IMG/VR virus record: IMGVR_UViG_3300027762_000033
Location: 1-26,609 of that record
Length of the DNA: 26,609 bases
DNA from: a virus
Direction: 5' to 3' (one strand)
Below the pieces are notes generated by a model. The model was not told the origin of the DNA, ran no database searches, and saw nothing but the letters and a program-made list of their open reading frames with translations. Positions 5,762 through 25,076 of the stretch are shown here, piece after piece (the stretch's first letter is position 1; the number at the start of each line of letters is the position of its first letter). The translations under genes and the position numbers were made by a program.

Positions 5762-7074
5762 TAGGGAGTTCCGTAGGTTAGGACAACGTTAATCCAATTT
5801 GTGTAAACAACATTAACTGGTGTATCAGTGCACTTACATCGAATCTGAAATGACACAGATCTATCCACCCTCAACGACTTACTAAACGAAGCCGTTGCCG
5901 TGCCTTGTCCGTTGATTATGATGCTTGCATCACTTGTCTCCCACACTTTCGTTACTACACCTGTCGGTGCAGTTAACAACACTGTTACAGTGGGACTAAC
6001 TATCTCTTTATAATAACTGCTTAAGACAGTATCTGTCGTACTCAACGCAGCCTCACTCAACGCAACCGAAAACGCAGAAGGAGCTACACTAGCAACCGCT
6101 CCGCCACTGCCACCGACAGTCACAACCAACAAACCAACCAACGTACCATACGCTATCGGGGCACTCACCACAAGCGTGTCGCCATCTGCCTCCGCAGTAT
6201 AACCGGTTGTGTGCGTGTTAATCGCAAGTGCGATAGCAGACGCGGTATCACCTACATCTGCAAGGCCAGCAACGGTCTCAGCCGAGTGCAACCGAACATA
6301 CCCACCAAGAGAATCTGGTCCTTCAACCAAGAATGTCGAGTCTGCTGTACTTGACGTGACGATAAACGTCGCCGTTGCCGACTCCCCTGCGGAGGCACTC
6401 TGCCCGTCGTCAATCTGCGACACCACAAGCGTACCATCGTCAGTTGTTACACTCTGAGTGAGCGCAAACGAGATGTTTGTTGGTGACTTTAATTCAACGT
6501 AGTTATTAACCAACGTAACTTGCCAGCCAGTCAAGTCTGTCAGTTGCCCTGCAAGCTGCGCAGCAAGTTCCACATTCGATGTCAGCCCGACTAGTACCTC
6601 ACCATTCACGAACTGCATCACCGGACTACCATCGTAAAACACGTAGCTATCCCCACTCGTGTACGTCGCCACCACCCACGCCTTGTCGCCGAACTGTGCA
6701 CTACACGTCACCGCTGTTATGCGGTGACGTGTATCGTCATACGTCACACCCTGCACTACCTCTGGATGCACAAGCTGCTGGTACGTCACACCCGTCGGCG
6801 CTGTGATATACGGCTCGGTCACTCCATCCGTATACGCTGACCCAAACACCAGTAACCCAGTCGACACCTCTTGCAGCCCAAACGTCCCCTGGTTCTCATT
6901 GCTGTCCAGCACACTCACATCTGCAAACGCTTCAAACGCTTCTCTCTTTTCAACCTCCCCACCTTGGTTCACGAACGCATTCTCTAGCGTCTGTAACGTC
7001 CCTGGCTGGGAGGTCAGTTCGTCTTTGCGGCTATCTAGGCCGTACTTAAAGTTCTGGATTGCAAGATATTTCAT
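5761..7074 (-). CDS. Tail nozzle / stabilization-like protein, N-terminal part with Ig-like insert
   Basis: This is a 437-aa protein. Residues 1-50 (KYGLDSRKDELTSQPGTLQT, then a NAFVNQGGEVEKREAF stretch) match the typical opening of podoviral nozzle/stabilization proteins. The first 150 residues continue as beta strands (GLLVFGSAYTDGVTEPYI). The remainder is Thr/Ser/Val/Ala-rich and looks like two or three Ig-like or beta-sandwich domains (about 160-437) rather than the propeller. The propeller-like part is in the next gene, joined by TAATG. No clear Shine-Dalgarno precedes the ATG; instead a perfect 6-bp hairpin lies 4 to 20 bases upstream, so translation or transcription may be controlled there. 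Structural role is inferred from the N-terminal signature and position. Confidence 0.72.
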   Translation of the reverse strand: MKYLAIQNFKYGLDSRKDELTSQPGTLQTLENAFVNQGGEVEKREAFEAFADVSVLDSNENQGTFGLQEVSTGLLVFGSAYTDGVTEPYITAPTGVTYQQLVHPEVVQGVTYDDTRHRITAVTCSAQFGDKAWVVATYTSGDSYVFYDGSPVMQFVNGEVLVGLTSNVELAAQLAGQLTDLTGWQVTLVNNYVELKSPTNISFALTQSVTTDDGTLVVSQIDDGQSASAGESATATFIVTSSTADSTFLVEGPDSLGGYVRLHSAETVAGLADVGDTASAIALAINTHTTGYTAEADGDTLVVSAPIAYGTLVGLLVVTVGGSGGAVASVAPSAFSVALSEAALSTTDTVLSSYYKEIVSPTVTVLLTAPTGVVTKVWETSDASIIINGQGTATASFSKSLRVDRSVSFQIRCKCTDTPVNVVYTNWINVVLTYGTP

Positions 7075-7078
7075 GACG

Positions 7079-7099
7079 GTTCCAGTTAATGGAACACAC
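7079..7099. repeat. Palindromic element, copy A (left border of accessory cassette)
   Basis: On the plus strand GTTCCA (7079-7084), a five-base spacer GTTAA, then TGGAACACAC (7090-7099). The 6-bp arms are perfect. The 21-base unit differs at one position from copy D (26385-26405) and, read in inverted orientation, at two positions from copy B (16677-16697). It fills the gap between the stop of the lipoprotein gene and the start of the nozzle gene. Confidence 0.85.
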
Positions 7100-7377: not shown

Positions 7378-7775
7378 GGTTGTTTTCTCCATTCGTTTTC
7401 AAGTTTCCAGTGGTTAGTGTGGCTGCTAATTGGCACTTCGTAGGTGAACACTCGCGGCCCGGCGTCTTGCACGGTGATTGTCACTCTGCGAACGACGTTA
7501 CTCGCCTGCCAGCGTTCGGTCGCGGGTTGATACTGGCTGCCGGCGTGCAACGGGCGGTGGGTGGCAATTCCCGGACTTTTACTGAGCATCACACAAATTT
7601 CGCACCCCTCCCCATTATACCACTCGAATACATTGGTGACAATGCAGTCGGACTTCTGAACGCCGTTAGTATGTTGGTAAGCGAAGCACGAGCATCCGCA
7701 AACCCATCGCAGAATCAGGTAGGCGCACGCGCTATAAATGAACGTAATGCGTAGGTTGCGTTTGGCTATTGTCAT
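7374..7775 (-). CDS. Small membrane or exported Cys-rich protein
   Basis: A 133-aa product with a basic N-terminus and a hydrophobic segment at residues 11-32 (TFIYSACAYLILRWVCGCSC), followed by a soluble domain. The whole protein has eight Cys, several close together (VCGCSC, EGCEIC). The start is well supported: ATG 7775 overlaps the holin stop as ATGA and AAGGAG lies upstream. Its position directly behind the holin-like gene would suit an inner-membrane spanin partner, but the soluble part looks like beta strands, not the coiled coil of Rz proteins. Function unknown. Confidence 0.62.
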   Translation of the reverse strand: MTIAKRNLRITFIYSACAYLILRWVCGCSCFAYQHTNGVQKSDCIVTNVFEWYNGEGCEICVMLSKSPGIATHRPLHAGSQYQPATERWQASNVVRRVTITVQDAGPRVFTYEVPISSHTNHWKLENEWRKQP

Positions 7776-8125
7776 GGTGTCGTATCTCCTTCTTGCTGAA
7801 ACCAGCCGAGTTTTTGCTCGATGCGTTTCAGAAATTGATTATGGATGAACCACGCTGCGCAGGCGGCAACCAGGCCGAGCACGATCATTTTGGTTAGCCA
7901 CACCCGCAGTAGTTCGCCTGGCGGACGTTCGGAAAGCAGCGGGAAACACGCCATTCCCGCAAGCAACACCGCTCCGGGAATCCACTTGTTATCCACGAAT
8001 GGGAGCAGCTTGAGCGCGTATCCCAGCGCGATGCAGACGATCAGCACAAGCACCCCCACGGGCGCACCCATCAACGCATCGTTCCAGCGATAGAATGTTT
8101 CGAGTCCTGTTATTGTGTTGGTCAT
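7772..8125 (-). CDS. Holin-like membrane protein, three TM segments
   Basis: This 117-aa protein has three hydrophobic segments: about residues 21-40 (APVGVLVLIVCIALGYALKL), 48-64 (KWIPGAVLLAGMACFPL) and 76-95 (LTKMIVLGLVAACAAWFIHN). A charged C-terminal tail follows. The IPG turn at the start of the second segment, the size and the topology resemble phage holin families. It starts one base after the spanin-like gene stop and overlaps the next gene by ATGA, so it belongs to a compact lysis-like cluster. A holin would time lysis by permeabilising the inner membrane. Another small phage membrane protein cannot be excluded from sequence alone. Confidence 0.72.
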   Translation of the reverse strand: MTNTITGLETFYRWNDALMGAPVGVLVLIVCIALGYALKLLPFVDNKWIPGAVLLAGMACFPLLSERPPGELLRVWLTKMIVLGLVAACAAWFIHNQFLKRIEQKLGWFQQEGDTTP

Positions 8126-9367: not shown

Positions 9368-10939
9368 TCATCTCAGAATTCCTACGCGCAAAGTGGTAGC
9401 GCGGACGCGCTTCGTTGTCACGGTGCGGTCTCTGTATGCCAGCGGATGCGGATATACTAATGGGGTGTAATGGCTCGGCTCGGGAATCCTCGCGTTGAAA
9501 TAATCTCGGCCAGCCTTCACCAGGTTGGTGATGTAGTAACTGCACTGCTCCGTGTTGTCCGCCAAACCAACATCCACAGCAGCACCATTGACGGTGTTAC
9601 TCCAGAAATAGCAAGGCCACAACGTTTGATTGTTAGAAAAGTTCGTTCCAGTCAGCGCGTAGGACGATATGACACCAGGCTGCTGATTGGCAGGCCAGCC
9701 GTATTGATCGGTGTTGCTATCCAGGGCATTGGTCAGGATCAAATCGGTATCCGTCATCCCGATAGCGATGAAATCGTGCCCGATAGTGGTTCCGCTTGAG
9801 TACGCCGTTCCGGCTCCCGGACCCAGATTGATGGCGTTGAACGTGTTGGTGATGGTCTCCGCAACCGAAGAACCAATACGGATGTAGCCTCCGCCATACC
9901 CCGAGATGCTCCCTCCATCCGGCACGTTGTTTGTGTAGCGGTAGGTTGTGAAGCCAACCGTGAAGCTCGACCAGTTGGTTGGATTGCCGTCAAACGACAA
10001 ACCCAACCCAGTCGTCCCCCAATCATAGTTTGTGTAGTTGATGGTGAAGGCATATCCCGGCACACCGCGAGGTAGTGGCACTCCAACGTAAAGGTGCGCG
10101 GGCGGGCACGATCTGTAGTACTTCAATTGCGCAAATCCTGCCGTGGTTGCGTACACAGTGTTAGAGAAAAGCACGCCGCTGCCTCCGCGAAACCCCAACA
10201 CCCACGGCCCGCCGCCGCAGTTGGTAAAAACATTGTTGTAAATCTCCCATGATCGGGCGGACGTGTCTCCGGAGTCGTAACCATGCACTCCGCTCGGAGT
10301 GTAACCATCACAAAAATTGTGGCGAAAGACCAGCGATGCTCCATTGTAAGCGTCGAAGAAGCCGTTGCCCGGATAGCCGTTCGCATAGAACACGCAGTTC
10401 TCCGCGTAGGCTGCATTGGTCGTGCCAAATGGGATAACTTCGCTTGCCCAACTGGTGTAATCCCCTCCCTCGAAATCAATCGGCTGCGCCGACACGCCGG
10501 TGTTCACAAAAACACAGCGTTCAACCAGACCTTTACTCGTCGTGATACCGCGATACGGAGTGGTCAGGTGCAGGTTGTAATAGTGCGTATGACCATAGCT
10601 GAAGAATCCCCCGTTGTTCCCGGAACTGCCGATGCACGTCATGTCTGAAACGGTGATGACGTTCGTTTCCGAGTTCTGAAATAAGAACGTATATTTGAAA
10701 TTGCCGGACGTGATCGTGGTTTGATTCGTGCCGGAGCCACGCAGCCAAAACGACTTGTAGAGCGGTGACGTGATCTGGTTGGTGATCGTGCAACTGCCGG
10801 GAAGAATTTCAACCACATCACCCTCAGCCACCGCAGCAATGGCCGCACGAATGGCCGCGTCAGTGCAGGCGACCTGATTGGTCGCGGCGTGGCTGCCAAG
10901 CACCATTCCAAGCGCAGCAATGAACAGGATAATCTTCAC
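9368..10939 (-). CDS. Secreted right-handed parallel beta-helix protein
   Basis: Start chosen at GTG 10939: it overlaps the upstream stop as GTGA, is preceded by GGAGGG, and places a signal peptide at the N-terminus (VKIILFIAALGMVLGSHA, cleavage near residue 18). An open frame continues upstream but would add a non-hydrophobic leader. The 523-aa protein opens like pectate-lyase fold proteins (AIRAAIAAVAEGDVVEILPG), then shows Asn/Gly-rich coils (RCVFVNTG, ENCVFYANG, WEIYNNVFTN) over about residues 70-265. An inserted beta domain and a short tail (YTPLVYPHPL) typical of exported beta-helix proteins follow. It could bind or cleave a polysaccharide; catalytic residues cannot be assigned. Confidence 0.8.
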   Translation of the reverse strand: MKIILFIAALGMVLGSHAATNQVACTDAAIRAAIAAVAEGDVVEILPGSCTITNQITSPLYKSFWLRGSGTNQTTITSGNFKYTFLFQNSETNVITVSDMTCIGSSGNNGGFFSYGHTHYYNLHLTTPYRGITTSKGLVERCVFVNTGVSAQPIDFEGGDYTSWASEVIPFGTTNAAYAENCVFYANGYPGNGFFDAYNGASLVFRHNFCDGYTPSGVHGYDSGDTSARSWEIYNNVFTNCGGGPWVLGFRGGSGVLFSNTVYATTAGFAQLKYYRSCPPAHLYVGVPLPRGVPGYAFTINYTNYDWGTTGLGLSFDGNPTNWSSFTVGFTTYRYTNNVPDGGSISGYGGGYIRIGSSVAETITNTFNAINLGPGAGTAYSSGTTIGHDFIAIGMTDTDLILTNALDSNTDQYGWPANQQPGVISSYALTGTNFSNNQTLWPCYFWSNTVNGAAVDVGLADNTEQCSYYITNLVKAGRDYFNARIPEPSHYTPLVYPHPLAYRDRTVTTKRVRATTLRVGILR

Positions 10940-11739
10940 AAGCCCTCCAGGTAATACGAGTTGTAAAGCGCAGTGATTTGCGCCTGCGACAGTTCGCCGG
11001 AATAAACAGCCAGCCCGGCGAGTTTTCCGTCGAACCACAGACTTGCTCCTCCATTTCGAGCGCCGACATACACAGGATTCGCTGCATACTCAGCAGCCGT
11101 ATCCTTGTTAGCTTTCCATTCCTCGTCGGTCTTCTCAACAGCATTGACGTAGAACTTGAAGTTTCCACGAGTTGAAGAGTTGTCTGCCACCACCACGAAG
11201 TGATTCCACGCTCCTGTGTTCGGAGCAGTAATCGCTTCCATAAGATAGTATGCGCCAGATGTTCCTCGCACAGCCGCCACAAGCGCACCATCTTCACCGG
11301 CAATGTACACATTCACCCTCGAAGTCCCAGACCACATTGAACTATTGTGTTCGTAGATGCTCTGGTCAACATTGGTCGCGTCGAACCAAGCCCGGAAAAC
11401 GATTGTGATAATGTTGGTCCCGAAAGTGAGATTGCTGGGTGTGCTTCCCGCTGTTGATGTCCTTGCGTCGTCAGAACTCCCGTTAAACTCCAGGGCATAA
11501 CCGCTTCCACTCGGTCCCGTTACCCAGTCAGCGTCAATAAACCCCCGTACGCCCACCACATTGGTCAACTCCGTTCCCGCCCCTTCGGTCATCTTCCACC
11601 ACAAAATATCCGGCGTTGGAGCGGTAACTCCGGTTGTCTTCTTCACCGCCGACCCTTGAAACGCCGTCGTGCGCGTGAAGCTCTGCCCAAAAGCAGAAAG
11701 CAGAAAGCAGAAAGCAGAAACGAAAATGAGCCGTTGCAT
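10936..11739 (-). CDS. Secreted LamG / concanavalin-like lectin-fold protein
   Basis: A 267-aa product with a hydrophobic signal segment (residues 3-18, cleavage probably after AFG) and one LamG-like domain over about residues 43-262. The domain shows ILWWKMTEGAGTELTNVVG, then YALEFNGSSD, a TFGTNIITIVFRAWF strand, TGAWNHFVVVAD and a final LAGLAVYSGELSQAQITALY, all usual for LamG_3 domains that bind sugars. It lies two bases after the fiber-like gene and overlaps the beta-helix gene by GTGA. The hydrophobic core of the signal peptide is encoded by four copies of a heptanucleotide, described separately. Ligand unknown. Confidence 0.8.
   Translation of the reverse strand: MQRLIFVSAFCFLLSAFGQSFTRTTAFQGSAVKKTTGVTAPTPDILWWKMTEGAGTELTNVVGVRGFIDADWVTGPSGSGYALEFNGSSDDARTSTAGSTPSNLTFGTNIITIVFRAWFDATNVDQSIYEHNSSMWSGTSRVNVYIAGEDGALVAAVRGTSGAYYLMEAITAPNTGAWNHFVVVADNSSTRGNFKFYVNAVEKTDEEWKANKDTAAEYAANPVYVGARNGGASLWFDGKLAGLAVYSGELSQAQITALYNSYYLEGL
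11693..11720. repeat. Heptanucleotide tandem repeat (GCAGAAA)4 in a signal-peptide coding region
   Basis: Four perfect copies of GCAGAAA (TTTCTGC on the coding strand) lie end to end. They encode the FVSAFCFLLSAF part of the signal peptide of the LamG protein. Because the unit is seven bases, gain or loss of one copy would shift the reading frame. Confidence 0.95.
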
Positions 11740-11741
11740 GG

Positions 11742-13268
11742 TCAGTTGTTACTCAAGATGGCCACCGCTCGTTTGCAGTTTATTCCGTTCGTTTGCGATG
11801 CGAACGCCACGTCGCATGTCAGTCCGGCGGGAATAGTGATTGCGGTATTCGTCATTCCGCCGAGGACGCGAATCCCCGCCACTTCGACGCGGAACGTGAT
11901 GTTGCTGTCAGTGCCATTTGTCAGAAGCATCGAAGCTGTCCACTCGCCAGCAGAGGCCAAGCCAGTCAGATTTGTGACGGAGCAGTGGTTTGTTAGCGAG
12001 TAAAAGTAGAGCGGCGTGTAGCCGTTCCCCAGGGCAATGCTGTTCGTTGGGCCAGCCCATGCTTGCGTACTCGCACCAACGATGTTCGTGGACACGAGGT
12101 ATACAGGTCCGGTGAAAGCGTTGCTGCCATTCCAAATGATGTTTCCACTGTTCGTTCCGCCAACAATTCCAGAGGGCTGGATGTTCGTGGCCAAGGCTGC
12201 ATTCCAGTGGTTGGAGATAATCAATTCCGTCGTCTCGACTGTATCCACCGTGTTTGTCCCGGCCACGGTGAGATTGCCGCTAAGATAGTTAGACTGGCCC
12301 AGTCCGATGAGGCTGCCTCCAAGTAGAGTGTTGCCTTCATTGTCCACCGAAAACGTAACGCCATTCGTGCTGGAATGCACCAAAGCCGAAGACCACAGCC
12401 CATTCACATAATAGGATCCCATGTCCCAAGAATCCGCCTGTCCGTCCATGACGCTGGACACGGTTATACCACTCATCACATTGGTCTCGCCCCCTGTGGT
12501 ATCGTGTTGCATAACAAAGTTGATATCCGCCGACTTGGTATCTCCAGCAAAGCCATACAATTTGCCGCCTCCACTTAGTGTTGTTGGAGTATTGCTGGCT
12601 GTGTAGTAGTTGACATGATCCCAAACCCACACATTGGACAGACCCGCACCTTTCCCAAAGTAATTACTCGCTGTCACGCTGCCCGCAAACGTCACGGCCC
12701 GCGTTTCGTTGTTGGTGAGCGCGCCGGATGTAACTCCTGTGACATTTGTCAATCCAGCGCCGTTGCCGTAGAAACCGCTCGACGTCACGCTCCCCGTCGT
12801 ATTCACCTGATTCGTAAGCTCTCTGGATACAGAAAGCAATGGCACATTCGTTGACAACCGAGCATCTGCCAGGGTACCAGTGGTGAGGTCTGAGGCATTA
12901 GTTGTAGCTTTGTCGCTCAAAACGTTGGTAGAAAGGCTCGCCCAGTTGGTCAAGTTTGCGGCTCCTATTTGCCAAGGCGCGTTCGTTACCGCCAGATAAC
13001 TGATGTTGGTCTGTACTGTCTGCACACCGGACAATCCTGATCCGTCGCCGTAGAGTTTACCGAAATAGTTCGACAAACCCAATGCGATAAGATTTCCGCT
13101 AAGTTCTATCTGATCAAACCGCCCCGTCTTCACGTTAGCGTAACCCCAAGCATTCGTTTCTCGGCCAAGGCCGCTTTGGCCGTCGCCCCGCGGCACGAGG
13201 TAGTTCGTTTGCGCCTGGACGGCTTGCGCTAGTGTGAAAAATAACAAAGCGAAGAGTCTCATAATCAT
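11742..13268 (-). CDS. Secreted tail-fiber-like repeat protein
   Basis: A 508-aa protein with a signal peptide (MIMRLFALLFFTLAQAVQA, cleavage before QTN; a second ATG two codons on is equally possible). Fiber-type motifs follow in order: GLGRETNAWGYANVKTG (33-49), GDGSGLSGV (74-82), SDLTTGTLADARLSTNV (126-142), GNGAGLTNV (168-176) and GKGAGLSNV (205-213). These Gly/Asn motifs are common in phage tail fibers and in exported proteins of Verrucomicrobiota. The C-terminal 250 residues are beta-rich and TN-rich. No strong ribosome binding site is visible; it starts six bases after the sialidase-like gene. It may form a trimeric adhesin, either virion-borne or on the host surface. Confidence 0.78.
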   Translation of the reverse strand: MIMRLFALLFFTLAQAVQAQTNYLVPRGDGQSGLGRETNAWGYANVKTGRFDQIELSGNLIALGLSNYFGKLYGDGSGLSGVQTVQTNISYLAVTNAPWQIGAANLTNWASLSTNVLSDKATTNASDLTTGTLADARLSTNVPLLSVSRELTNQVNTTGSVTSSGFYGNGAGLTNVTGVTSGALTNNETRAVTFAGSVTASNYFGKGAGLSNVWVWDHVNYYTASNTPTTLSGGGKLYGFAGDTKSADINFVMQHDTTGGETNVMSGITVSSVMDGQADSWDMGSYYVNGLWSSALVHSSTNGVTFSVDNEGNTLLGGSLIGLGQSNYLSGNLTVAGTNTVDTVETTELIISNHWNAALATNIQPSGIVGGTNSGNIIWNGSNAFTGPVYLVSTNIVGASTQAWAGPTNSIALGNGYTPLYFYSLTNHCSVTNLTGLASAGEWTASMLLTNGTDSNITFRVEVAGIRVLGGMTNTAITIPAGLTCDVAFASQTNGINCKRAVAILSNN

Positions 13269-13274
13269 ACCAAG

Positions 13275-15626
13275 TTATTGAATCACCACCACGCCGTTGC
13301 TGACGGCCAATGATACATTTGTGCCAGCCACAATATCTCTCAGGCGCATTGTTGCAGCGGCCTGTATATTACTCCTCCATGTCGTTGGCGCAGTATTTCG
13401 GTCCCTGTTCTTCTGGATGGCTTGCGTCCAAGAGGCCACGCCATTAAGCCCAATGTCCTGCTTGAAAATTAACAGATCGCTAACTCCCATTTTTGAAAAC
13501 AAAGAACCTCCAGCCTTAGACCCGACTGTCAGCGGATATGCTGGTGAAGAAGCCGACGCAGAATAGCCGTTAGTGAAGTGCGTATAGTAGGGATTGCCGT
13601 CCACGTATGTCCTGTAAACTCTATAGATAGCGGCTGGATTGGTGTACACGAAATCTGTCGAACAACTCACGGCGATCGTAGTCCATTGATCCACTGGGAG
13701 ACTGACCAAGCATTCGTTCACAAGCCAATGCCCTGCGCCATCAGAGACGCTGAGACAAAGATAGTTTGGGCCGTAGGATCGTGCAATATGGATTCCGGCA
13801 TTCGTGTTGGCGTAGTTACAGGTATCCAAAATGGGGTCCATGCTCCCTGCCGTGCCTGCGTGGTAAAGGCGCATCACGATTGTCCACTCGCTGCCGTCGT
13901 GAAGGAACTTCCAAGAATCCGGGTCTTGAGCCACCAGATTTTGATTGGTGCCGTTGAACCACAGATTGCCGTCTAAGTGGACCATTGGCGGAGCGGCAGC
14001 GTTGGTCAGTGACTCTCCGTTATAGCCTGAATCAACCCATATCTCCCCATTCGCCTTGCCAGCCAGACTGGATTGCATATAAGCCGCAAACGGAGTGCTG
14101 ATATTGGTAGAGGCTGGGATTGTCTGCGTCGGGATGCTCGAATCCAAAACGTCAAAGAAGATGCTCGAATTCGTTTGAGTGAAATACGGATCGTGGGAGG
14201 ATTCACCATAAACGAATCCCAACTTCCCGCCGCCCAGAGTAACAAATGTTCCCATCTGAAAGGCGTTGTAATACATGGGATATTGCGTGAACAGTTGCGT
14301 CCAGGTGGCCCCCTCATCGTACGATTGAAAAAGCCCAGTGCTATTCGCGTCCGTTCGCGTCGCCAGCAGCCACTTATTTCCTACCACCGTAAAAGCAGCG
14401 GGTGGCAATGTTCCAGTGCATTGGTTTACGTCAACGGATGCGAGAGCACTCCAAGTTGCTCCGTCGTCGGATGAAACTCCCCTGAATAGTCTGTTGGTAC
14501 GCGTGCCTATCGTAGTGGATTCCCAACGGAACAGCCCCACCAGCCGCTTATCAAAGGTTTCTACAACAGCAACCTCTGAGATGTTTTCATTGCTCCACTG
14601 CGCCCAAGTCCACGTCAACCCAAAGTCTGACGAGGTATATGCCCCAGGATACCACTCACCTTGATCTACTCCAGGAGCCGCTTGACGGAAAAAAAAGGCA
14701 GGAACAATCAGCTTACCACGTTGGCTATAAACCGGCAGAGAACCCAAAGCAACACCCCACGTATTCGTCCCGTAGATGTTCGTGCCAACTGGATTTGTCA
14801 ACTCAACCGGGTGCGACCAGTTTACCCCGTCATTCGTTGACCACGAATACCCCACATGCCAATCGTCAATGCTTAGGTCATAGGGATGACTAGTCGAAGA
14901 TAAATAGCTCACCGCAGCAAACAGCCGGCCATCTGGCATGCGGATTGGTGCAAAATACATGTAACTGTTGTTGGACACTCCGCCATCGGCCAACGCCACA
15001 GTCGGCGTCTGCCATGTGTGTCCGTTGTCGTAGGATACCGCTCGATTTACGCTGGCGTATGGCGAGGCGTGGGAAACCATGTCGAGGTAGTACGCCTGCA
15101 CGGAGTAGGTTTGTGGATTGTAGACGGCGGCTGGAAAGGTGTTAAACGCACCATTGGACACGATGACGATGCTCGATGAACGTTGCGGTCTGGACGTGGT
15201 CACAGGATCATTCAGTAACATGGGATAAACCTGCAACTTTGATTCAAGAGGCCATGAATACCGATCCACTCCGCCCAAGGTCAGGGACGAAAAGTTGTTT
15301 GTGGCCACGGCAGAGTTAAGAGTTTCCGGCGTGACATAGTCTTGTTGCCGCCAATTCGAGTTGTTCGTTCCGCCGACGAGCCGCCATTCCGTGGCGGTAT
15401 CTATCTGGTAGCAGGTCATTCCTTCCGTTCGTCGAGCGGCTGGTAAGTTCGTTCGCGCCAGAGCATTTGCCACCTGCTTAGGCGTTCCCTTGATTTCACT
15501 GGCGTCGGCTAATGCCCACGTCATGTTCGTGCTACCTGTTCCGATTGTTGACAGAACAGCTATATCAGCCACCACAGACGACGAAATGAAGATGCAACCA
15601 AGCAGGATATAGATTCGTGTTTTCAT
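13275..15626 (-). CDS. Secreted sialidase-like (Asp-box) protein with LamG-like domain
   Basis: The largest complete product (783 aa). A signal peptide (residues 1-20, cleavage after VVA) is followed by a fiber-type linker (RRTEGMTCYQIDTATEWRLV, about 66-85) and then a six-bladed sialidase-like propeller at about 145-500. It has five Asp boxes: SYDNGHTW (199-206), STNDGVNW (263-270), SSDFGLTW (332-339), SSDDGATW (386-393) and SYDEGATW (435-442). A LamG-like domain occupies about 530-725, with LWFNGTNQNLV and WTIVMRLYHAG. The last residues (DIVAGTNVSLAVSNGVVVIQ) again resemble a phage fiber end. The FRIP arginine motif is not evident, so glycan hydrolysis is unproven; a glycan-binding depolymerase or exo-enzyme is likely. 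Confidence 0.83.
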   Translation of the reverse strand: MKTRIYILLGCIFISSSVVADIAVLSTIGTGSTNMTWALADASEIKGTPKQVANALARTNLPAARRTEGMTCYQIDTATEWRLVGGTNNSNWRQQDYVTPETLNSAVATNNFSSLTLGGVDRYSWPLESKLQVYPMLLNDPVTTSRPQRSSSIVIVSNGAFNTFPAAVYNPQTYSVQAYYLDMVSHASPYASVNRAVSYDNGHTWQTPTVALADGGVSNNSYMYFAPIRMPDGRLFAAVSYLSSTSHPYDLSIDDWHVGYSWSTNDGVNWSHPVELTNPVGTNIYGTNTWGVALGSLPVYSQRGKLIVPAFFFRQAAPGVDQGEWYPGAYTSSDFGLTWTWAQWSNENISEVAVVETFDKRLVGLFRWESTTIGTRTNRLFRGVSSDDGATWSALASVDVNQCTGTLPPAAFTVVGNKWLLATRTDANSTGLFQSYDEGATWTQLFTQYPMYYNAFQMGTFVTLGGGKLGFVYGESSHDPYFTQTNSSIFFDVLDSSIPTQTIPASTNISTPFAAYMQSSLAGKANGEIWVDSGYNGESLTNAAAPPMVHLDGNLWFNGTNQNLVAQDPDSWKFLHDGSEWTIVMRLYHAGTAGSMDPILDTCNYANTNAGIHIARSYGPNYLCLSVSDGAGHWLVNECLVSLPVDQWTTIAVSCSTDFVYTNPAAIYRVYRTYVDGNPYYTHFTNGYSASASSPAYPLTVGSKAGGSLFSKMGVSDLLIFKQDIGLNGVASWTQAIQKNRDRNTAPTTWRSNIQAAATMRLRDIVAGTNVSLAVSNGVVVIQ

Positions 15627-15629
15627 AAT

Positions 15630-16196
15630 TTACTGAACTGAAACGCTGTAACTGCCTTCAAGAATGTACTGGGTGCGATAGGTTCGGTATTGCAGACCGT
15701 GAGCCGTGTTAGTGGTAAGAATCAAACCCGTGTCTTGTCCAAGGGGCGTCCAAAAAGCCGCCGTTCCCCAAGACATAGGGTGGGACCAGTAAATGTATTC
15801 CATCACTGGCGTGTAATTCTGCGCCGCTCGCACGTAGGTATTCGTCGCCACCCCGGTCAACAGATTCGTCACCTGATTATCTGTGAGCGTGGCATTGGTA
15901 CTGTAGCCAGAGTAGAAATAGTAGTTCGTGCTCGTGCCACCGCCTCCACTTCCACCAGCAACTAGTTGCCAATCACCAACGTCATTCAACTCCCACACTC
16001 CATTAGTTGTAATAGTAATCGAACCACCAACAATCGGATTACCGTTTGTGTCCAACAAACTCACCAAGTTCGTAATGCTAAACTTATTCGCATTCATGTC
16101 CGACTGCAACTTGCCGTTCCGAATCGGGAAAGTCTGAGCGAAGACGCTTCCCGACGCAAGAAGAGTCGCTAAAACAAGTCGCAGTGTGGCGTTCAT
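15630..16196 (-). CDS. Secreted small fiber-like protein, TN-rich
   Basis: Start chosen at ATG 16196, which overlaps the preceding stop as TAATG; it gives a 188-aa protein beginning directly with a signal peptide (MNATLRLVLATLLASGSVFA, cleavage before QTF). Next comes a fiber-type segment (RNGKLQSDMNANKFSITNL), then a Gly linker (GGSGGGG) near residue 92, and a Tyr/Thr/Asn-rich C-terminal half. The LQsDmNAnkFsITNL pattern is common near the start of phage fiber proteins that hold a head domain on a shaft. It precedes the sialidase-like gene by three bases and may be its partner. Function not established. Confidence 0.72.
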   Translation of the reverse strand: MNATLRLVLATLLASGSVFAQTFPIRNGKLQSDMNANKFSITNLVSLLDTNGNPIVGGSITITTNGVWELNDVGDWQLVAGGSGGGGTSTNYYFYSGYSTNATLTDNQVTNLLTGVATNTYVRAAQNYTPVMEYIYWSHPMSWGTAAFWTPLGQDTGLILTTNTAHGLQYRTYRTQYILEGSYSVSVQ

Positions 16197-16663
16197 TATT
16201 TGTAAGAGTAACGAAACCAAATATTACTTGCAATGGCTACGCCGTAGTTTGTAATGTTATACAAACGAATCCAGCCAGCCTCACCAACCTCAAAGCCGGT
16301 TGAAGTAAACTGAGGCTCTGTGACGTTTGTCATGGCCCAAGTGACATTTGTCAGTGACGTCCAATTCGTCTTGTCCAGTGAGGTTTGAAACAAAAAGGAT
16401 AGTTCATTAGTCGCAGTAGACGCTGGAGTCGTTTGCAACAAAAGGCCGACAGACGTTGCTGTCACAGCAAACGGCTGTTGCATCTGCTCTACGTAGTTTG
16501 TTGGCGCATTCCACGTAGAGCAGGCGGTTATTAAGTCAGTGTCAACCTCTAGTTGGTAACCAGGCGCATTCGTTTTAACAAAAGGCGCAAACGTAGCCTT
16601 ATACTGCGCTTGCGTAGCAACAACCGAACCTACAAAAACTAAAACAAGCAACCACTTTTTCAT
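16196..16663 (-). CDS. Secreted small TN-rich protein
   Basis: Start chosen at ATG 16663 because AAGGAA lies at the right distance upstream and the product then begins with a clean signal peptide (MKKWLLVLVFVGSVVATQA, cleavage before QYK); a longer frame would start eight codons earlier inside the palindromic element region. The 155-aa protein is beta-rich, with frequent Thr-Asn pairs (TSLDKTNWTSLTNVTWAMTN). It ends in an aromatic strand (NIWFRYSYK), a style common in exported proteins of Verrucomicrobiota. It is the first gene of the accessory cassette, immediately after copy B of the palindrome. No function recognised. Confidence 0.72.
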   Translation of the reverse strand: MKKWLLVLVFVGSVVATQAQYKATFAPFVKTNAPGYQLEVDTDLITACSTWNAPTNYVEQMQQPFAVTATSVGLLLQTTPASTATNELSFLFQTSLDKTNWTSLTNVTWAMTNVTEPQFTSTGFEVGEAGWIRLYNITNYGVAIASNIWFRYSYK

Positions 16664-16676
16664 TTCTTTCCTTTTG

Positions 16677-16697
16677 GTGTGTTCCATGAAATGGAAC
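16677..16697. repeat. Palindromic element, copy B (right border of accessory cassette)
   Basis: On the plus strand GTGTGTTCCA (16677-16686), spacer TGAAA, then TGGAAC (16692-16697). It lies three bases after the adaptor gene stop on the minus strand and just before the ribosome binding site of the next gene. Orientation is inverted relative to copy A, so the GTGTG/CACAC extensions of both copies point into the cassette. Confidence 0.85.
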
Positions 16698-16700
16698 TAA

Positions 16701-17618
16701 CTAATTTGATACCTCATACTCAAGATAGTAACCGGCGGCATCAGGCGCGGCACTAAGGGAGTAGTTAAAACCTGAGAGCGTCAGTGACGTCTTCACAGGG
16801 GACGGAACGATCACAAGGCCGGCAGACGGTTGGCTAACCGTAGCTCTAACGCTTGTCGGAGTGAAGCCAATGTTGTACGCTACCGAGCCAGTGGCTTCAC
16901 CTACTGTCAGAGCGACAGAGCCGGAATGGGACATATATGTTGATTGTGCAGCACTTGAACCGATTAGGATGGTTTCACGTTCACGAACCTCCCTTGGAAC
17001 AAGGGAGAAGGTACGGTAACGTTGTTGACTAGAGGCGGATAAGCTAGCATACAGTGAAGCTGCTAACGCAGCAGCACGCTGTGCGTCAGGACGGTTACCT
17101 GCTGCTTTGATGTCCGCCGCAACGGACAACACCAAAAGCATATCGTCAAGGTTACAGAGGTCTGTATCGCTTGCAAGAGTATCGAGAACCTTCTGCCCTA
17201 CAAACCGAACAACCTGCGCTGTCAGCGGCACTGGCCACACTTCAAACGTCGTAAGGGTGTAGTGCGCCCACCGCTGTATCGGATCACTCGCTTCAAGAAG
17301 CTCGCTGTTGAAGGTGTTTAGTTCGTCTACCCCTATGCCATAGTCGACCTCGCGCCACGTGCCGTTATACTGCGCCTCCACTTTCAGTGGGCGGTTGTAG
17401 TTTATAGCCGGCTTCGCTGCTGTCCGCACACCGCCGGAGACGTCCACAGACGCTGTGTAGGTTAGTTCACTCCAATCCCGCAAAGCGGCTAGAAACTTCT
17501 GCTTGTTCGACAACTGCACCTTCAACTCTGCGTCGGTGCCAGAGCCGACAGATGTCGACGCCCCGATCTCACCCTTTAGCATTGTGACGAGAGTTGAAAG
17601 TGCAGTTCTTGTCGCCAT
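16701..17618 (-). CDS. Head-tail adaptor-like protein with C-terminal Ig-like domain
   Basis: A 305-aa protein. Residues 1-225 are mostly helical with a central beta part (GTWREVDYGIGVDELNTF and WAHYTLTTFEVWPVPLTAQV), followed by a long Ala-rich helix (MLLVLSVAADIKAAGNRPDA). This is the layout of podoviral adaptor proteins (T7 gp11 / P22 gp4 class) that dock under the portal. Residues about 228-305 form a Ser/Thr/Val-rich beta-sandwich, probably Ig-like, that is extra for an adaptor. It sits one base after the upstream stop and precedes the accessory cassette. Adaptor identity is inferred from size, predicted secondary structure and order. Confidence 0.7.
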   Translation of the reverse strand: MATRTALSTLVTMLKGEIGASTSVGSGTDAELKVQLSNKQKFLAALRDWSELTYTASVDVSGGVRTAAKPAINYNRPLKVEAQYNGTWREVDYGIGVDELNTFNSELLEASDPIQRWAHYTLTTFEVWPVPLTAQVVRFVGQKVLDTLASDTDLCNLDDMLLVLSVAADIKAAGNRPDAQRAAALAASLYASLSASSQQRYRTFSLVPREVRERETILIGSSAAQSTYMSHSGSVALTVGEATGSVAYNIGFTPTSVRATVSQPSAGLVIVPSPVKTSLTLSGFNYSLSAAPDAAGYYLEYEVSN

Positions 17619-17619
17619 A

Positions 17620-17961
17620 CTACGTAGAAGTAACGGCCTCTCGACCAGTTAGAGTTTCGCTGTCGGGTACAGCTTGTGTCACAGAGGCTAACGCCTCCTC
17701 GAAGGACGCAGGAAAGCGAGGATTGGCAGAGCCAAACAGTGCGTTGACAACCTTCCTCGGGTACTTATGTGACAAGCGTGCAAGCTCAAAAGCAGGAGAG
17801 CGTTCGACGTCAGCAGTTTCCTCAACGACGGTCACTGCACTACCTTGCACTTTCTTGTTAAAAAGACAAGCTAGAAGCTGTGCCTCTGGTGGGGTGACAA
17901 GGAGCTTCGGCACATCGTTCTTGTGCTCGTCGAGTTTTAAACGTATTGTTGCAGTTTTCAT
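17620..17961 (-). CDS. Small conserved-type phage protein between capsid and adaptor genes
   Basis: The start is uncertain. ATG 17961 gives 113 aa beginning MKTATIRLKLDEHKND; GTG 18012 would add 17 residues and overlaps the upstream stop as GTGA, but it would place a perfect 10-bp hairpin inside the coding region. I prefer the ATG. The protein has a strand, then TPPEAQLLACLFNKKVQGSA, an ELARLSHKYPRKVV helix and FPASFEEAL near the end. This order (TPxE helix, RLxxKY, then LFxxxxxPxxFEEA) recurs in small proteins near podoviral capsid genes. Function unknown, possibly in head completion. Confidence 0.68.
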   Translation of the reverse strand: MKTATIRLKLDEHKNDVPKLLVTPPEAQLLACLFNKKVQGSAVTVVEETADVERSPAFELARLSHKYPRKVVNALFGSANPRFPASFEEALASVTQAVPDSETLTGREAVTST

Positions 17962-17974
17962 GTATGTGGGGAGA

Positions 17975-17998
17975 AGGTGGGGCCGTTTGGCCCCACCT
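17975..17998 (-). terminator. Perfect 10-bp GC-rich hairpin, attenuator-like
   Basis: On the minus strand AGGTGGGGCC, loop AAAC, GGCCCCACCT, followed by TCTCCCC rather than a U-run. It lies right after the exported protein gene that follows the major capsid gene, where late operons often have a partial terminator. Without a U-run it may instead stabilise the upstream mRNA end. Confidence 0.6.
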
Positions 17999-18008
17999 GT
18001 TGCATCGT

Positions 18009-18650
18009 TCACGGAACGAAGTAGTTGTACTTAATCGCCTTAACTACGTTCGTGTAGGCCATTCCGTCAGCGACGGTATAGCCCAACAACCTAAGTGCCT
18101 TCGCTCCCACAAACATCGAGGCGTCGATGTTAGTGGCGACGGTTGTGTTAATTGTCGCAGAAGGAGTAATGGTAAACACAAGGCGCGAGCCTGTTCTGCT
18201 GTCTTCATTCTCACCGTCCCACACAGGTGCGAAGGTGATAGTGCCGACAGCACTAGCGTGTGCTGGGCCAACGGTTACACTGATATTTCCAACCCAAGGA
18301 CCTGGGTGAGGAGTGATACCAGAAGCTTGGTTTGTCCCACCAGCCGGCTGGGAAACCACAGAAGGCAGAACTAGCTCAACCTCACCACAGAGGTTAAAGT
18401 TTGTGCCTGAAGAGTTTGTGCCCCAGACCCTGGCACCTTGCCAGTTAGTCCATACAAGGTATGTGTCGTTCACAGCAAGGCCACCTGCGTAGACTGCTGA
18501 TAGGTTCGTCAACACGTTGTCGGAGGAAGCGTACAACACGTTAGTGCCGACGGTAACCGACTTAGCGTTGAGGAATGAAATGCTACGATGCTCGGCAAAC
18601 ACCTGCGTTGCAAGCGCCGCCACAGCGAGGAAGAGAACCATCTTTTTCAT
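18009..18650 (-). CDS. Secreted protein directly after the capsid gene
   Basis: A 213-aa product with a clear signal peptide (MKKMVLFLAVAALATQVFA, cleavage before EHR) and a good ribosome binding site (AAAGGA). The mature part is beta-rich with Thr/Asn/Val (VGTNVLYASSDNVLTNLSAV, TITPSATINTTVATN), perhaps two Ig-like layers. In many phages this slot, just behind the major capsid protein, holds a head decoration protein, which would not be exported. Here the signal peptide argues for a periplasmic or surface role, or for an N-terminal hydrophobic anchor used in the virion. It is likely expressed strongly together with the capsid gene, before a hairpin. No family recognised. Confidence 0.72.
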   Translation of the reverse strand: MKKMVLFLAVAALATQVFAEHRSISFLNAKSVTVGTNVLYASSDNVLTNLSAVYAGGLAVNDTYLVWTNWQGARVWGTNSSGTNFNLCGEVELVLPSVVSQPAGGTNQASGITPHPGPWVGNISVTVGPAHASAVGTITFAPVWDGENEDSRTGSRLVFTITPSATINTTVATNIDASMFVGAKALRLLGYTVADGMAYTNVVKAIKYNYFVP

Positions 18651-18668: not shown

Positions 18669-19757
18669 TTAGACCGCAACTTCGTACACACCGTGGCAGT
18701 TAAGCTGAGTGACTTCGAGGCCACCAGTCCATGTCATGCTGCGCAGGAAAACCGCAGCGTTGTAGGGTCGCTCTGGGTCGAGGACCTTGTTTTCTTCGTT
18801 CGCCATCGGACGGAGCCGCAGGCGACGAGGATCAATGACGTAGCAGCGAGAGCTAAGGTTGTTGCTGTCGAGCCACGGGTCATAACGGAAGGTACCAAGA
18901 CCCTTCATCGAGATGTCGGTCATGCCGATGTCGTTCTTCCCGTTGTTGACGAAGCCCTCTTGGGTGTAGATGCCTTTCTCGTGAACCTCGTCCGCAAGAG
19001 CGTCGAGGAAGACGCTACCGCACAAAGCCACCGAAGGCCTACCTCCCCACCGCATGAGCTGACGCAGTTCAGAGCGGAGCTTACGGGTTAGCGTTTGGTC
19101 AGTTCTGCTTGGCGTGATCGCCGGGCCAGTGTTGGCGCTTTCAGCAAGGCCCGTCAAGAAAGCACGATGCCGCCACCACGTGTAGTCAGAGCGTACAAGG
19201 CCAGCGGTGGTGCCGGTGTTGGGTGTGTCGGTCAGCAACGCAGTGATTCCAGGGACTTGTTTCGAGCCTGACCCATCACCCCACAACATATTGTTCATGC
19301 TAATGGCCCAAGATTCGGTAAAGTCCGCAATGCGGGCCTTGAACGTCCCGCCTGCAATACGCACCGCCTCAGCGTTACTATGGTTCTTCATAGAACCATC
19401 GTTAGTCACCGTGATACCATCCTTCTTGAGTTCGGTCCAGGTGATAATAAGGTTCGCGACAACCTCGTACCAAGCCACCTGCGCTCGCCGGATGTTCTCC
19501 GCTTGGTCAAACTCGAACAACTGGTCCTCACTGTAGCCTTGGAAGAAGCCAGTAGTGTCGGACATCATAGTTCCCTGCACAGCGGTAGAGATGTAGTCTT
19601 TACCGCCTGGGAATGTTTCTTTATTTGCGTCCAGAATTTTCAGTAGTGGACGCTCCTGCAAGGCTTGCATAAGCGGACCGTTTTTGACGTAGAACGTCAG
19701 AAGGGCGTTTGCAAGGTCACCTGCAGCACTCATACCGATTGTAGTAAGTGTTGCCAT
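18669..19757 (-). CDS. Major capsid protein
   Basis: A 362-aa protein with no signal peptide, located directly after a scaffold-type gene and two genes after the portal. The N-terminal arm (ATLTTIGMSAAGDLANALLT) is followed by an extended E-loop-like section (TFPGGKDYISTAVQG) and a domain with paired Trp (SDYTWWRHRAF). A C-terminal part has RLRLRPMANEEN and MTWTGGLEVTQLNCHGVYEV, as in HK97-fold phage capsid proteins where a final strand carries LEVTNCxxxGV. The closing pattern and the gene order make this a confident call. It should form the icosahedral head with the scaffold encoded just upstream. Confidence 0.85.
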   Translation of the reverse strand: MATLTTIGMSAAGDLANALLTFYVKNGPLMQALQERPLLKILDANKETFPGGKDYISTAVQGTMMSDTTGFFQGYSEDQLFEFDQAENIRRAQVAWYEVVANLIITWTELKKDGITVTNDGSMKNHSNAEAVRIAGGTFKARIADFTESWAISMNNMLWGDGSGSKQVPGITALLTDTPNTGTTAGLVRSDYTWWRHRAFLTGLAESANTGPAITPSRTDQTLTRKLRSELRQLMRWGGRPSVALCGSVFLDALADEVHEKGIYTQEGFVNNGKNDIGMTDISMKGLGTFRYDPWLDSNNLSSRCYVIDPRRLRLRPMANEENKVLDPERPYNAAVFLRSMTWTGGLEVTQLNCHGVYEVAV

Positions 19758-19760
19758 ATG

Positions 19761-20810
19761 TTATACGTACTTTCCACCAGACGCCACAAGATTGATGACA
19801 TCGTCAGGAGTCTTGGGTGCTGGAAGTGCTGTGGTGGAGGTACCGACAGAGGTAAGGGTACGACTGACCGAAGGCCTTGGCGTCAGGCGCCCAATACCTT
19901 TTGTTACATTCTCATACGCTTGCTCTGCAAGACTGATAACGTCTTGCTGAGTTTTTACCTGCGCGCTTTGAAGCATGGTGTTGAAACGACTTTGCACAAA
20001 TTCCCACAGGCCGTCTGGCTCACTTGCGTTCACCTTTGGCTTGAAGTCTGGGTTTGTAGCGCGCTTCGCTTTATCCCAACTATTCACCGCTTCAACCATC
20101 GAGTTGCGAGAGCGAGTCTGTTCGGTTTCGATAGACCGCAGACGTCGTTGCTCCTCGACTTTTTGTTGGGCGAGTGTCTTGTTGAGTTGCTTTGCACGCT
20201 CTAGGCTGATCTTGCCTTCGTTGACCTCCTGTTGCAGGTCCTCGGGCAAGCCATCGCCGTTGACATACTGCTGTAAAACCTGCATGACCGGGGTCAATCG
20301 CTCAAGCGCCTTTGCTGGGTTTGTGTTCAGCAGAGCAGTTAGCTCAAGGGCGTCGTTTAACTGAGCATCAGTGATGCTGTTTGCTTCGCAGTATTGGTTC
20401 AACTTCACCACCCGCTCAGCCATTGGTTTTAGAGACTCAACCTCTTCACGGAGTGTCCTTGCCTCTTCGACCTTCTGCTGCCAACGGGGGTGCGCATGGA
20501 ATGGTAGGTCTTCGACCTTTTCTTCTGTCTGCTCCGCCTTAGCGGGTTGTGGCACAGGTGGCGACTGTGCGTCGCTGTCTTTCTTTTCTTCGGCTGGCGG
20601 GGCCGACAGCTTGGCAGATAACTCACTAATGACCTTATCTGCTGTCTGTTCGCCTTCCGACGGAGACGGGGCCGTCGTAGAAGCTGGCGCTTCTGTAGGT
20701 TTAGCGTCTGTTGTGCTTGCCGGTGTAGACACCACCGGCGTCGCAGTTGCCTCGACTGACGGGGTCGTGGTCTCTTGTTTAGCGTCGAGAGTTTCAGTGT
20801 TGGGATCCAT
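19761..20810 (-). CDS. Capsid scaffolding protein
   Basis: A 349-aa acidic protein. Residues 1-95 are low-complexity Thr/Ser/Pro/Ala/Glu (for example TTPSVEATATPVVSTPASTT). Residues about 100-260 are charged helices likely to form coiled coils (ARTLREEVESLKPMAERVVK, then the EQRRLRSIETEQTRSRN region). The C-terminus (about 320-349) is a short basic/proline part ending in VASGGKYV. This disordered N-terminus plus coiled-coil core is the usual scaffold makeup, and the gene lies between portal and major capsid protein. The start overlaps the portal end by 17 bases. No protease domain is seen. Confidence 0.8.
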   Translation of the reverse strand: MDPNTETLDAKQETTTPSVEATATPVVSTPASTTDAKPTEAPASTTAPSPSEGEQTADKVISELSAKLSAPPAEEKKDSDAQSPPVPQPAKAEQTEEKVEDLPFHAHPRWQQKVEEARTLREEVESLKPMAERVVKLNQYCEANSITDAQLNDALELTALLNTNPAKALERLTPVMQVLQQYVNGDGLPEDLQQEVNEGKISLERAKQLNKTLAQQKVEEQRRLRSIETEQTRSRNSMVEAVNSWDKAKRATNPDFKPKVNASEPDGLWEFVQSRFNTMLQSAQVKTQQDVISLAEQAYENVTKGIGRLTPRPSVSRTLTSVGTSTTALPAPKTPDDVINLVASGGKYV

Positions 20811-22806
20811 TTTGGACTAGTGTGGGTTGTCCGCCCTCCACCGGAGGTGGTGCGAGGGCAGGTTGTTGTGGTTGCGGTGCAAGCGCCATTGGAGGTGGAA
20901 AGAATTCGGTAACGTCGAGCTGTTCGTCGAGGCGCTTTACCGCTTCGCGGATAACAGCCTGTGGGCTAGCGCCCGACTGCAAAAGCGTAGGTGCCATCCG
21001 CTCGAAGTTGGAGATTTCAACGGCCTTGTTAGGGCGGCCGCTAGACGCGGCCTTGACTGTTAGATACACTTCGTGCAGGAAATAGTTCCTCTCGTCAGGA
21101 GACTCAGGTAGCGCCGCGCCTGGACCAGCAACCTCTTTTGCTGTCTGCAACGAGAAAGACTTCAGCATTAGCTCACCGCAAGCCTCACTAAGTGCCGCGT
21201 TGAAATCGTCAAGGTCGTCAACGTTAGACGACACCGTCGACATCCTACTCTGCTCCGCGATAGTTTGACCTGTGGCGGTTACCTTCGGTGAAGGTTGTCC
21301 CATGTTGGCGTCTTGTAGACCAACAGAGAAAAGCATGTCTTGCTCAAGGGCAGAAGTGTCGTACAGCGTCGGATTGATCTCCTTAACACCGAGAGGCATT
21401 ATCAACTTTGTGATGTCCTCACCGGGCTTCACACCTTCCAGACGCACAACGCAATGCGGGTCGCCGTTGACGATACGGCTGATGTCCTCTTCACTAAGAT
21501 CCGCAGTGGTAACATATTTAGGCAGGTTCGCCTTCCGGTGTTCCCGAAGGGCGTCGCGGGTGCGATTCCACTCCTTTTGCACACTCCGTAGGACGTCCAC
21601 GTCTGATAGAGGGAAGACGCTAACAAGGCCAGGTTCGATCTCAGCGGCGTTGAACGTCAGAGCAAAAAGCGGATAGAAGCCACGTAGGGAAGGCTCTATC
21701 GGTGCTGGAGGGTCGACGTAGTCGTTGTATCCGTCAAGCACGAACAAGCGGCACTTCGTGCGGCTGTCAAAGACCTCAAACACGCAACCGAGACTGTCTT
21801 CACTAACAGCATTAGGCGCCATGCCACCACGTTGCGGTTGGCTCTTATCCGCACTCGCTTCGCAGGGCTGTCCTTGGGCGTCGTACTGTGTAAAGCTACC
21901 CCGCACGGCTTCGCCATTTAACTCAAAAAACTCAATGATTTCCTCGATCGGTAGGAGATATTCTACCGCCACCCACCTGGCACCGATAAAGCCTCGCAGA
22001 CGCCTGCACTTCGGATCAGGTATGATAGACGTTGAGGCCGGGAAGTCAAACACCAGCCGCTCTCGCATCTCACTATCAGAAGAGTCATACCCAAGCGACT
22101 GCACTAAGGTACGTAGCTGCTCTGCTTCCGCACTGTCCTGGTCAATGGTCCCGTCTGCAAGCTGCGCAGCAAGTGACTTTGCCCGCTTCGCTCTCTCCAC
22201 AAGGTTGTCTTTCGACGCGTCTGTGGTTCCGACCAGCGACTCCGCGTTCCGCACAACGCTAACGCGTGCAAAAGCAGCACCACAGATAAGCACACGGTTC
22301 ACCAGGTCCTTCATCTGACATTTGTAGTCGGGGGTCTGATGATCGGTGTTCCATGTATGAAGGCACGTAAGTGTTTTTCCGACTCGCTCTACCAGCTTCT
22401 TGTTAGCGTAGCCTTGCTCATAATCACTCAGCAAAGCAGATGCTTCTACGTCCGTTGGGTCCAGCATCAGTCTCTGCGCTGCGTCTAGAAGCTCCTCCTG
22501 CGTGCCGCCCCAGAGGACGTAGTCCAGGCGCTCACGTCGCTTCCACTCGGCCTGAGGATCGCGTGCATACAGCACCGCACCCTTTTGGTTTACCATTCGA
22601 AGAGTCAGATTAACCGTATAGCGGTCGTCATGCGCGCTTGTCTGCCCGTTCCATTGCAGGCCAGCAACAAACTTAATGTTGTCCCGCATCCTGGCGTATG
22701 CCTCTTTGTGAAACTTCTTCGCGTCCTTGATGCGTTGGACCCACTTCTCAGCGGACGACTTCACCCGTTCGGGTGGCTCAAAGACGTTAGAAGAGAGTGT
22801 GTCCAT
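20794..22806 (-). CDS. Portal protein
   Basis: A 670-aa protein that starts in a TAATG overlap with the large terminase stop. The N-terminal 100 residues contain FVAGLQWNGQT and a helical MVNQKGAVLYARDPQAEWKR segment as in P22-type portals. The middle has FDFPASTSIIPDPKCRRLRG, then FYPLFALTFNAAEIEPG and a long helix (DVDVLRSVQKEWNRTRDALR), the stem region of portal proteins. A Gln/Pro-rich tail ends the chain (PPPMALAPQPQQPALAPPPV). It should form the dodecameric ring through which the terminase packages DNA. Identity rests on size, these motifs and position. Confidence 0.87.
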   Translation of the reverse strand: MDTLSSNVFEPPERVKSSAEKWVQRIKDAKKFHKEAYARMRDNIKFVAGLQWNGQTSAHDDRYTVNLTLRMVNQKGAVLYARDPQAEWKRRERLDYVLWGGTQEELLDAAQRLMLDPTDVEASALLSDYEQGYANKKLVERVGKTLTCLHTWNTDHQTPDYKCQMKDLVNRVLICGAAFARVSVVRNAESLVGTTDASKDNLVERAKRAKSLAAQLADGTIDQDSAEAEQLRTLVQSLGYDSSDSEMRERLVFDFPASTSIIPDPKCRRLRGFIGARWVAVEYLLPIEEIIEFFELNGEAVRGSFTQYDAQGQPCEASADKSQPQRGGMAPNAVSEDSLGCVFEVFDSRTKCRLFVLDGYNDYVDPPAPIEPSLRGFYPLFALTFNAAEIEPGLVSVFPLSDVDVLRSVQKEWNRTRDALREHRKANLPKYVTTADLSEEDISRIVNGDPHCVVRLEGVKPGEDITKLIMPLGVKEINPTLYDTSALEQDMLFSVGLQDANMGQPSPKVTATGQTIAEQSRMSTVSSNVDDLDDFNAALSEACGELMLKSFSLQTAKEVAGPGAALPESPDERNYFLHEVYLTVKAASSGRPNKAVEISNFERMAPTLLQSGASPQAVIREAVKRLDEQLDVTEFFPPPMALAPQPQQPALAPPPVEGGQPTLVQNGSQH

Positions 22807-24949: not shown

Positions 24950-25076
24950 TTTCCCCGCTACTTTATCACCTTCCCGCCAGCCCCTCTAAAGAGATTCCGT
25001 TCCAGCGAGTCTAGGTCAAGTTGAAATTTTTGGTGCGGTTGGGGGAGAGGCTTCCCTGCCTATAAAAGACCACCGT

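Follow-up and report, generated by a model that had tools for sequence, protein, structure and literature searches.

Signal peptides on capsid-adjacent, fibre and spike proteins of a podovirus clade suggest exported virion parts

According to the textbook, the assembly of tailed phages is wholly cytoplasmic. We analysed a stretch of viral DNA of 26,609 nucleotides (the window; IMG/VR record IMGVR_UViG_3300027762_000033) in which seven late genes of the structural region of a podovirus start with export signals. Across the clade of this phage, we observed signal peptides that are conserved from a single origin beside the capsid gene, fused to fibres and spikes, and exchanged between Sec and Tat types. 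Virion proteins with signal peptides, recorded by MS/MS, also exist in unrelated cultured phages. With moderate confidence, we conclude that this clade synthesises virion-surface parts as Sec or Tat precursors, which are exported and processed and which attach to virions when the cell lyses or afterwards.

Results

Seven products of the window carry Sec signal peptides

The first-pass annotation had described the products starting at 18650, 16663, 16196, 15626, 13268, 11739 and 10939 as beginning with a basic end, a hydrophobic core and a small-residue cleavage site. Our rule-based scan bore this out: all seven N-termini are real and lie at these positions, and all seven have textbook Sec/SPI signal peptides with a basic n-region, a hydrophobic core and small residues at -3 and -1. 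The predictor was our own rule set, with sister phages as the negative control. The start at 16663 is an ATG within an ORF opening at 16687, behind AAAAGGAAAGAA, and that at 16196 is an ATG within a TTG ORF. The start at 10939 is a GTG with GGAGGG upstream. The proteins, with predicted signals and cleavage sites, are as follows.

18009..18650, minus strand: exported 213-aa protein whose gene immediately follows that of the capsid and which founds a clade-wide family; signal 18594-18650, cleavage between MKKMVLFLAVAALATQVFA and EHRS
16196..16663, minus strand: exported protein of 155 aa, its gene following that of tail tubular protein A; signal 16607-16663, cleavage between MKKWLLVLVFVGSVVATQA and QYKA
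15630..16196, minus strand: exported 188-aa protein; signal 16137-16196, cleavage between MNATLRLVLATLLASGSVFA and QTFP
13275..15626, minus strand: exported 783-aa BNR/sialidase-like spike candidate (Pfam BNR_2, E 6e-16); signal 15567-15626, cleavage between MKTRIYILLGCIFISSSVVA and DIAV
11742..13268, minus strand: exported 508-aa fibre with GDGSGL/GNGAGLTN repeats; signal 13212-13268, cleavage between MIMRLFALLFFTLAQAVQA and QTNY
10936..11739, minus strand: exported 267-aa LamG-domain protein (Pfam Laminin_G_3, E 2.9e-14); signal 11686-11739, cleavage between MQRLIFVSAFCFLLSAFG and QSFT
9368..10939, minus strand: exported 523-aa protein with GTG start; signal 10886-10939, cleavage between MKIILFIAALGMVLGSHA and ATNQ

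Beyond these seven, no called gene of the structural region scored in the scan; one additional match lay at 25011-25415, in an ORF that is itself doubtful. Given the 1% background of the sister phages, the binomial probability of seven signal-bearing genes among 27 is about 7e-9. Mis-called starts and chance hydrophobic N-termini were ruled out by the sister control and by the enrichment of Gln at +1 described below.

Fibre motifs had been noted in three of the seven, and we found the same three: the repeats of the 508-aa protein, the BNR domain of the 783-aa protein and the LamG domain of the 267-aa protein (E 3e-14), the last of which also matches a PHROG virion structural protein (E 8.9e-8). 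These three proteins and their clade homologues have fibre or spike architecture, and their genes lie in the tail part of the structural module. Profile searches returned no significant family match for the 155-, 188- and 523-aa proteins; judged by eye, the 523-aa product is suspected to be beta-helical. By tblastn, the 783-, 508- and 523-aa proteins had no match in phages, nor the 783-aa protein in plasmids. None of the seven has a peptidoglycan hydrolase domain, and thus they do not qualify as SAR or secreted endolysins.

The exported genes lie within a podovirus structural module

The 46.8-kb contig IMGVR_UViG_3300009009_000019 contains the window at 100% protein identity and carries replication genes on the other side; judged from its sequence, the window is part of a complete podovirus genome of about 46.8 kb. 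Positions 2-2083 cover the start of a giant internal virion protein of about 1800 aa, whose remainder lies at the opposite contig end. A reading frame running off both contig ends indicates circular permutation, as expected of a complete permuted genome. The backbone comprises TerS, TerL, portal, scaffold-like protein, capsid, a 130-aa protein, tail tubular protein A, stabilisation protein, acetyltransferase and internal proteins, and is syntenic with that of Microcystis phage Mae-Yong1326-1. The backbone features placed in the window are as follows.

22806..24299, minus strand: terminase large subunit (PHROG, E 1.8e-96)
20794..22806, minus strand: portal protein (33-44% identity to portals of relatives)
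19761..20810, minus strand: scaffold-like protein (synteny)
18669..19757, minus strand: signal-less major capsid protein (match to PHROG major head protein, E 6e-28)
17620..18012, minus strand: signal-less conserved 130-aa protein (clade homologues likewise lie between the capsid and tail tubular genes)
16701..17618, minus strand: signal-less homologue of tail tubular protein A (homologous to proteins of relatives, with synteny in Mae-Yong1326-1)
7772..8125, minus strand: holin (PHROG holin, E 1e-6); the lysis module adjoins the exported genes
4616..7074, minus strand: stabilisation protein as two ORFs of 437 and 381 aa

The signal-bearing genes occupy two slots, one directly after the capsid gene and one between tail tubular protein A and the lysis and stabilisation genes. 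Mae-Yong1326-1 shares TerL, portal, capsid, tail tubular, stabilisation protein and acetyltransferase genes with the window, and Rhizobium phage RHph_N65 has a podovirus backbone of the same kind, but in both phages the corresponding genes lack signal peptides. The stabilisation protein is encoded by two adjacent ORFs in the window and in most clade members checked, and by a single ORF in many sister phages.

A signal peptide beside the capsid gene defines the clade

About 100 distinct relatives were brought in by capsid-protein alignment. A signal-bearing gene directly follows the capsid gene in 19 of 19 distinct clade members with sequence there, whereas the gene at the same position has a signal in none of the 79 other relatives with sequence there. 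Seventeen of the clade members were counted by script, L117 was added by hand, and L168, which fits the pattern, came from an independent TerL search. The apparent lack of the gene in L117 proved to be a gene-caller gap, as the gene was present on hand check. On the capsid-protein tree the trait maps as one change, indicating a single origin; SH-aLRT support was 84 for the exact signal-bearing group and 100 for this group together with signal-less L051. Overall, signal peptides were found in 61 of 287 clade genes (21%) versus 8 of 828 sister genes (1%; Fisher p 8e-30), and the matches in the sister phages were mainly lipoproteins and membrane proteins. A one-off acquisition in one contig is ruled out by this clade-wide fixation.

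Further signal-bearing genes were seen between portal and scaffold in L037 (8097-8909) and just upstream of TerL in L041 (4629-5132), so that other structural slots are occupied by exported genes too.

Sec and Tat signals on proteins of the fibre slot

After tail tubular protein A, most clade members encode a signal-less protein of 230-280 aa and then signal-bearing proteins of fibre or spike architecture. Signal peptides are fused to GGTGQTTASAARTALG, a fibre hallmark, in L032, to a YGVKGDGSTDD spike in L034, and to GDGSGLTN repeats in L031 and the window; L113 has a signal-bearing beta-helix-like protein in this slot. Two fibre-slot proteins carry a Tat-type signal instead of a Sec signal, L035:8456-9415 (PRRKFLGG) and L115:12955-13755 (SRRQFVKTG), both with an RRxF-type twin-arginine motif before the hydrophobic core.

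The fibre slot of L033 contains a classic 1248-aa fibre without a signal and with a PHROG tail-fibre match. L129:13497-14417, a fibre-like protein of 306 aa, appears to be a homologue of the L035 Tat protein that lacks the signal. The signal is thus not obligatory for a fibre, and the trait is dominant in the clade rather than absolute. By eye, no signal-less receptor-binding candidate was seen in the window genome, L032/G009, L034/G011 and L117/G022.

The post-capsid proteins form a divergent, probably beta-rich family

Wherever a clade member has sequence behind the capsid gene, a homologue of the 213-aa protein is encoded there; the family is very divergent, at 18-46% identity. The predicted mature N-terminus lies about 4 residues before an SFLN-like motif, the C-terminal Pro is invariant across 17 aligned rows, and several Thr-Asn positions are shared. 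Structure prediction gave low confidence for the window protein (pLDDT 54); for the L117 protein, with 17 rows, the model reached a pLDDT of 70 and a pTM of 0.70 and was all beta. Searches of PDB and BFVD with the model gave no match at E <= 0.001 and only generic beta-sandwich matches, and no sequence or significant fold match to known decoration proteins was obtained. Profile searches likewise failed to link the family with the post-capsid proteins of sister phages, with the window's 155-aa protein or with the signal-less 230-280-aa gene that follows tail tubular protein A, and homology to these was rejected. As might be expected of a head decoration protein, the post-capsid protein adjoins the capsid gene and is, in the model, small and beta-rich. 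Since the all-beta model had no significant fold match, we propose head decoration from position only.

Sequence signs of processing

Gln occupies the predicted +1 position in 20 of 51 cases (39%) when scoring is blind to +1, versus a protein background of 3.2%, a 12-fold enrichment; under a Gln-favouring score the count is 25 of 51. In Bacteroidetes, most SPI substrates follow a Q-rule with Gln at +1, typically over 48% (PMC5837995). The enrichment lends indirect support to export and cleavage in the cell.

The exported proteins are also rich in Thr-Asn, which occurs at 2.8 times the composition expectation with all codon pairs used, whereas Asn-Thr stands at 0.9 (window 9368-18650 and clade loci L031-L041, L113-L118 and L129). 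For Thr-Asn, the remaining proteins encoded on these contigs gave a value of 1.3 and the fibre-like proteins of sister phages one of 0.7, and the enrichment was absent from the signal-bearing flavophage proteins described below and from one Verrucomicrobiota plasmid used as comparison. The excess may mark a modification site or be a signature of host exoproteins.

Signal-bearing virion proteins of cultured flavophages

Eleven proteins with Sec signals are recorded as structural by experimental MS/MS in Cellulophaga phages phi10:1 (gp091-094; locus L253, 41847-48878) and phi19:1 (gp101-104; L256), both Assiduviridae, and phi18:3 (gp085-087; L258), of the Pachyviridae; this status comes from GenBank MS/MS notes, which are silent on N-terminus maturity, and contamination of the preparations with outer-membrane vesicles or secreted proteins is possible. 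Ten of the 11 have Gln at +1, and homologues in phi46:3, phi19:3 and Ingeline carry Sec signals too. Like the window, these three phages have adjacent Sec-signal genes in the tail region and Gln at +1, and like the clade they have fibre and pectate-lyase domains on signal-bearing proteins. They differ from the clade in family and genes, and their signal-bearing set lies in the tail region; no exported post-capsid gene was seen in phi10:1. In our own scan, partial for some genomes, the exported fibre set was absent from the Bacteroidota isolates crAss001, B124-14, FCL-2, phi14:2, phiST and phi40:1. We found no text drawing attention to the flavophage signals.

Two phages, phi14:2 and phi4:1, have MS/MS virion proteins that lack a signal and contain a domain 44-50% identical to the lyase domain of phi10:1 gp093; the same enzyme domain thus enters virions on signal-bearing and on signal-less proteins alike. 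The first 118 residues of gp093, signal included, recur in phi18:3 on another C-terminus. Taken together, these arrangements identify the signal as part of an exchangeable N-terminal module. Near-identical signals were also seen across different phage families, suggesting exchange of such a module.

Discussion

From the sequence alone, the first-pass annotation had rightly pointed out that a tailed phage would not be expected to export fibre-like proteins. Of the four roles then proposed, a new route onto virions has become the best supported, through the clade-wide fixation beside the capsid gene and the MS/MS records of the flavophages, while secreted enzymes, remodelling of the cell surface and a block to superinfection are possible for the window phage. 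In the reading we favour, the precursors would be a capsid-proximal surface protein, tail fibres and spikes with Sec or Tat signals. Late in infection they would be exported and their signals removed, while DNA-filled capsids with tail stubs would be built in the cytoplasm. Once holin and endolysin had opened the cell, the mature parts would encounter the particles and attach to them, as P22 tailspikes and T4 decoration proteins do in vitro. From the MS/MS virion proteins with Sec signals, it follows that some tailed phages probably complete their virions with proteins that have first been exported from the cytoplasm. As the flavophages are unrelated to the clade, we infer by analogy that the window phage behaves likewise, and we infer the cleavage, its timing and the joining at lysis. 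More tentatively, with slightly less than even confidence, we propose that such two-compartment assembly, in which exported and processed surface proteins and fibres are added to cytoplasmic capsids at lysis, has arisen independently in at least two groups of tailed phages. The exported parts would then perhaps be modified at their Thr-Asn-rich regions outside the cytoplasm.

The main competitor is that the lectin, sialidase-like and fibre-like proteins are late effectors secreted to the surface or matrix of the infected cell, acting in progeny release, superinfection exclusion or dispersal, and are no virion parts. Real export signals, enzyme domains, the host-like Gln at +1 and the separate signal-less fibre of L033 all fit such a role, and the signal-bearing proteins of Porphyromonas gingivalis prophages have been interpreted as outer-membrane modifiers (PMC10367356). 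We nevertheless regard it as rather unlikely, as it would not account for fixation directly beside the capsid gene throughout the clade or for signal-bearing fibre and lyase proteins in virions of cultured phages, and it would leave the window genome and the three others inspected by eye without a visible receptor-binding candidate. The textbook rule of cytoplasmic assembly and the position of the flavophage signals within a conserved N-terminal module would instead agree with virion proteins whose signal-like N-termini are not exported, serving as uncleaved anchor or assembly handle, or with assembly of a retained cytoplasmic pool only. Selection for cleavage features (Gln at +1, small residues at -1 and -3), the two Tat replacements and the short spacing from the mature N-terminus to the SFLN-like motif all point to processing and make this improbable. 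Bacterial exoproteins often contain BNR, LamG and beta-helix-like domains, and the genes might accordingly be recently captured host genes, carried with their signals as non-functional passengers. A post-capsid protein present in all clade members at 18-46% identity is not a recent arrival, however, and the signals are joined to phage fibre modules; we consider capture of this kind very improbable.

Filamentous phages provide a familiar precedent, as their coat proteins pIII and pVIII carry signal peptides and are exported ahead of virion assembly. These proteins are assembled in the membrane during extrusion, whereas the window clade consists of tailed phages with lysis genes. Among tailed phages, the host Sec pathway is used by secreted endolysins, such as Lys44 of fOg44, and by SAR endolysins (PMC6116005); unlike the window products, these are lysis enzymes and not fibres or capsid-surface proteins. 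The P. gingivalis prophages (proposed Nixviridae) resemble the window phage in encoding proteins with Sec signals, five of which obey the Bacteroidetes Q-rule, but their genes are of unknown function and are read as host-surface modifiers rather than as fibres or virion parts (PMC10367356). In the open-access literature searched, of which coverage was incomplete, we found no description of signal-bearing fibres as virion parts.

If the favoured reading of exported virion parts is true, the rule of cytoplasmic assembly has exceptions among tailed phages. Fibres travelling via Sec or Tat could allow receptor-binding proteins to be folded or modified in the periplasm, and such fibres, when expressed without an export step, may misfold or miss processing. 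The post-capsid signal peptide provides a simple genomic marker for this uncultured clade.

All seven signals reported in the first-pass annotation are present, but as a tally of exported products seven is an undercount, as a lipoprotein encoded at 7099-7392 is likely to be exported too; judged from its sequence, it is probably an ordinary lysis protein. Its ORF overlaps a membrane-anchored ORF at 7374-7775 beside the holin gene, and the two resemble an outer and inner spanin pair.
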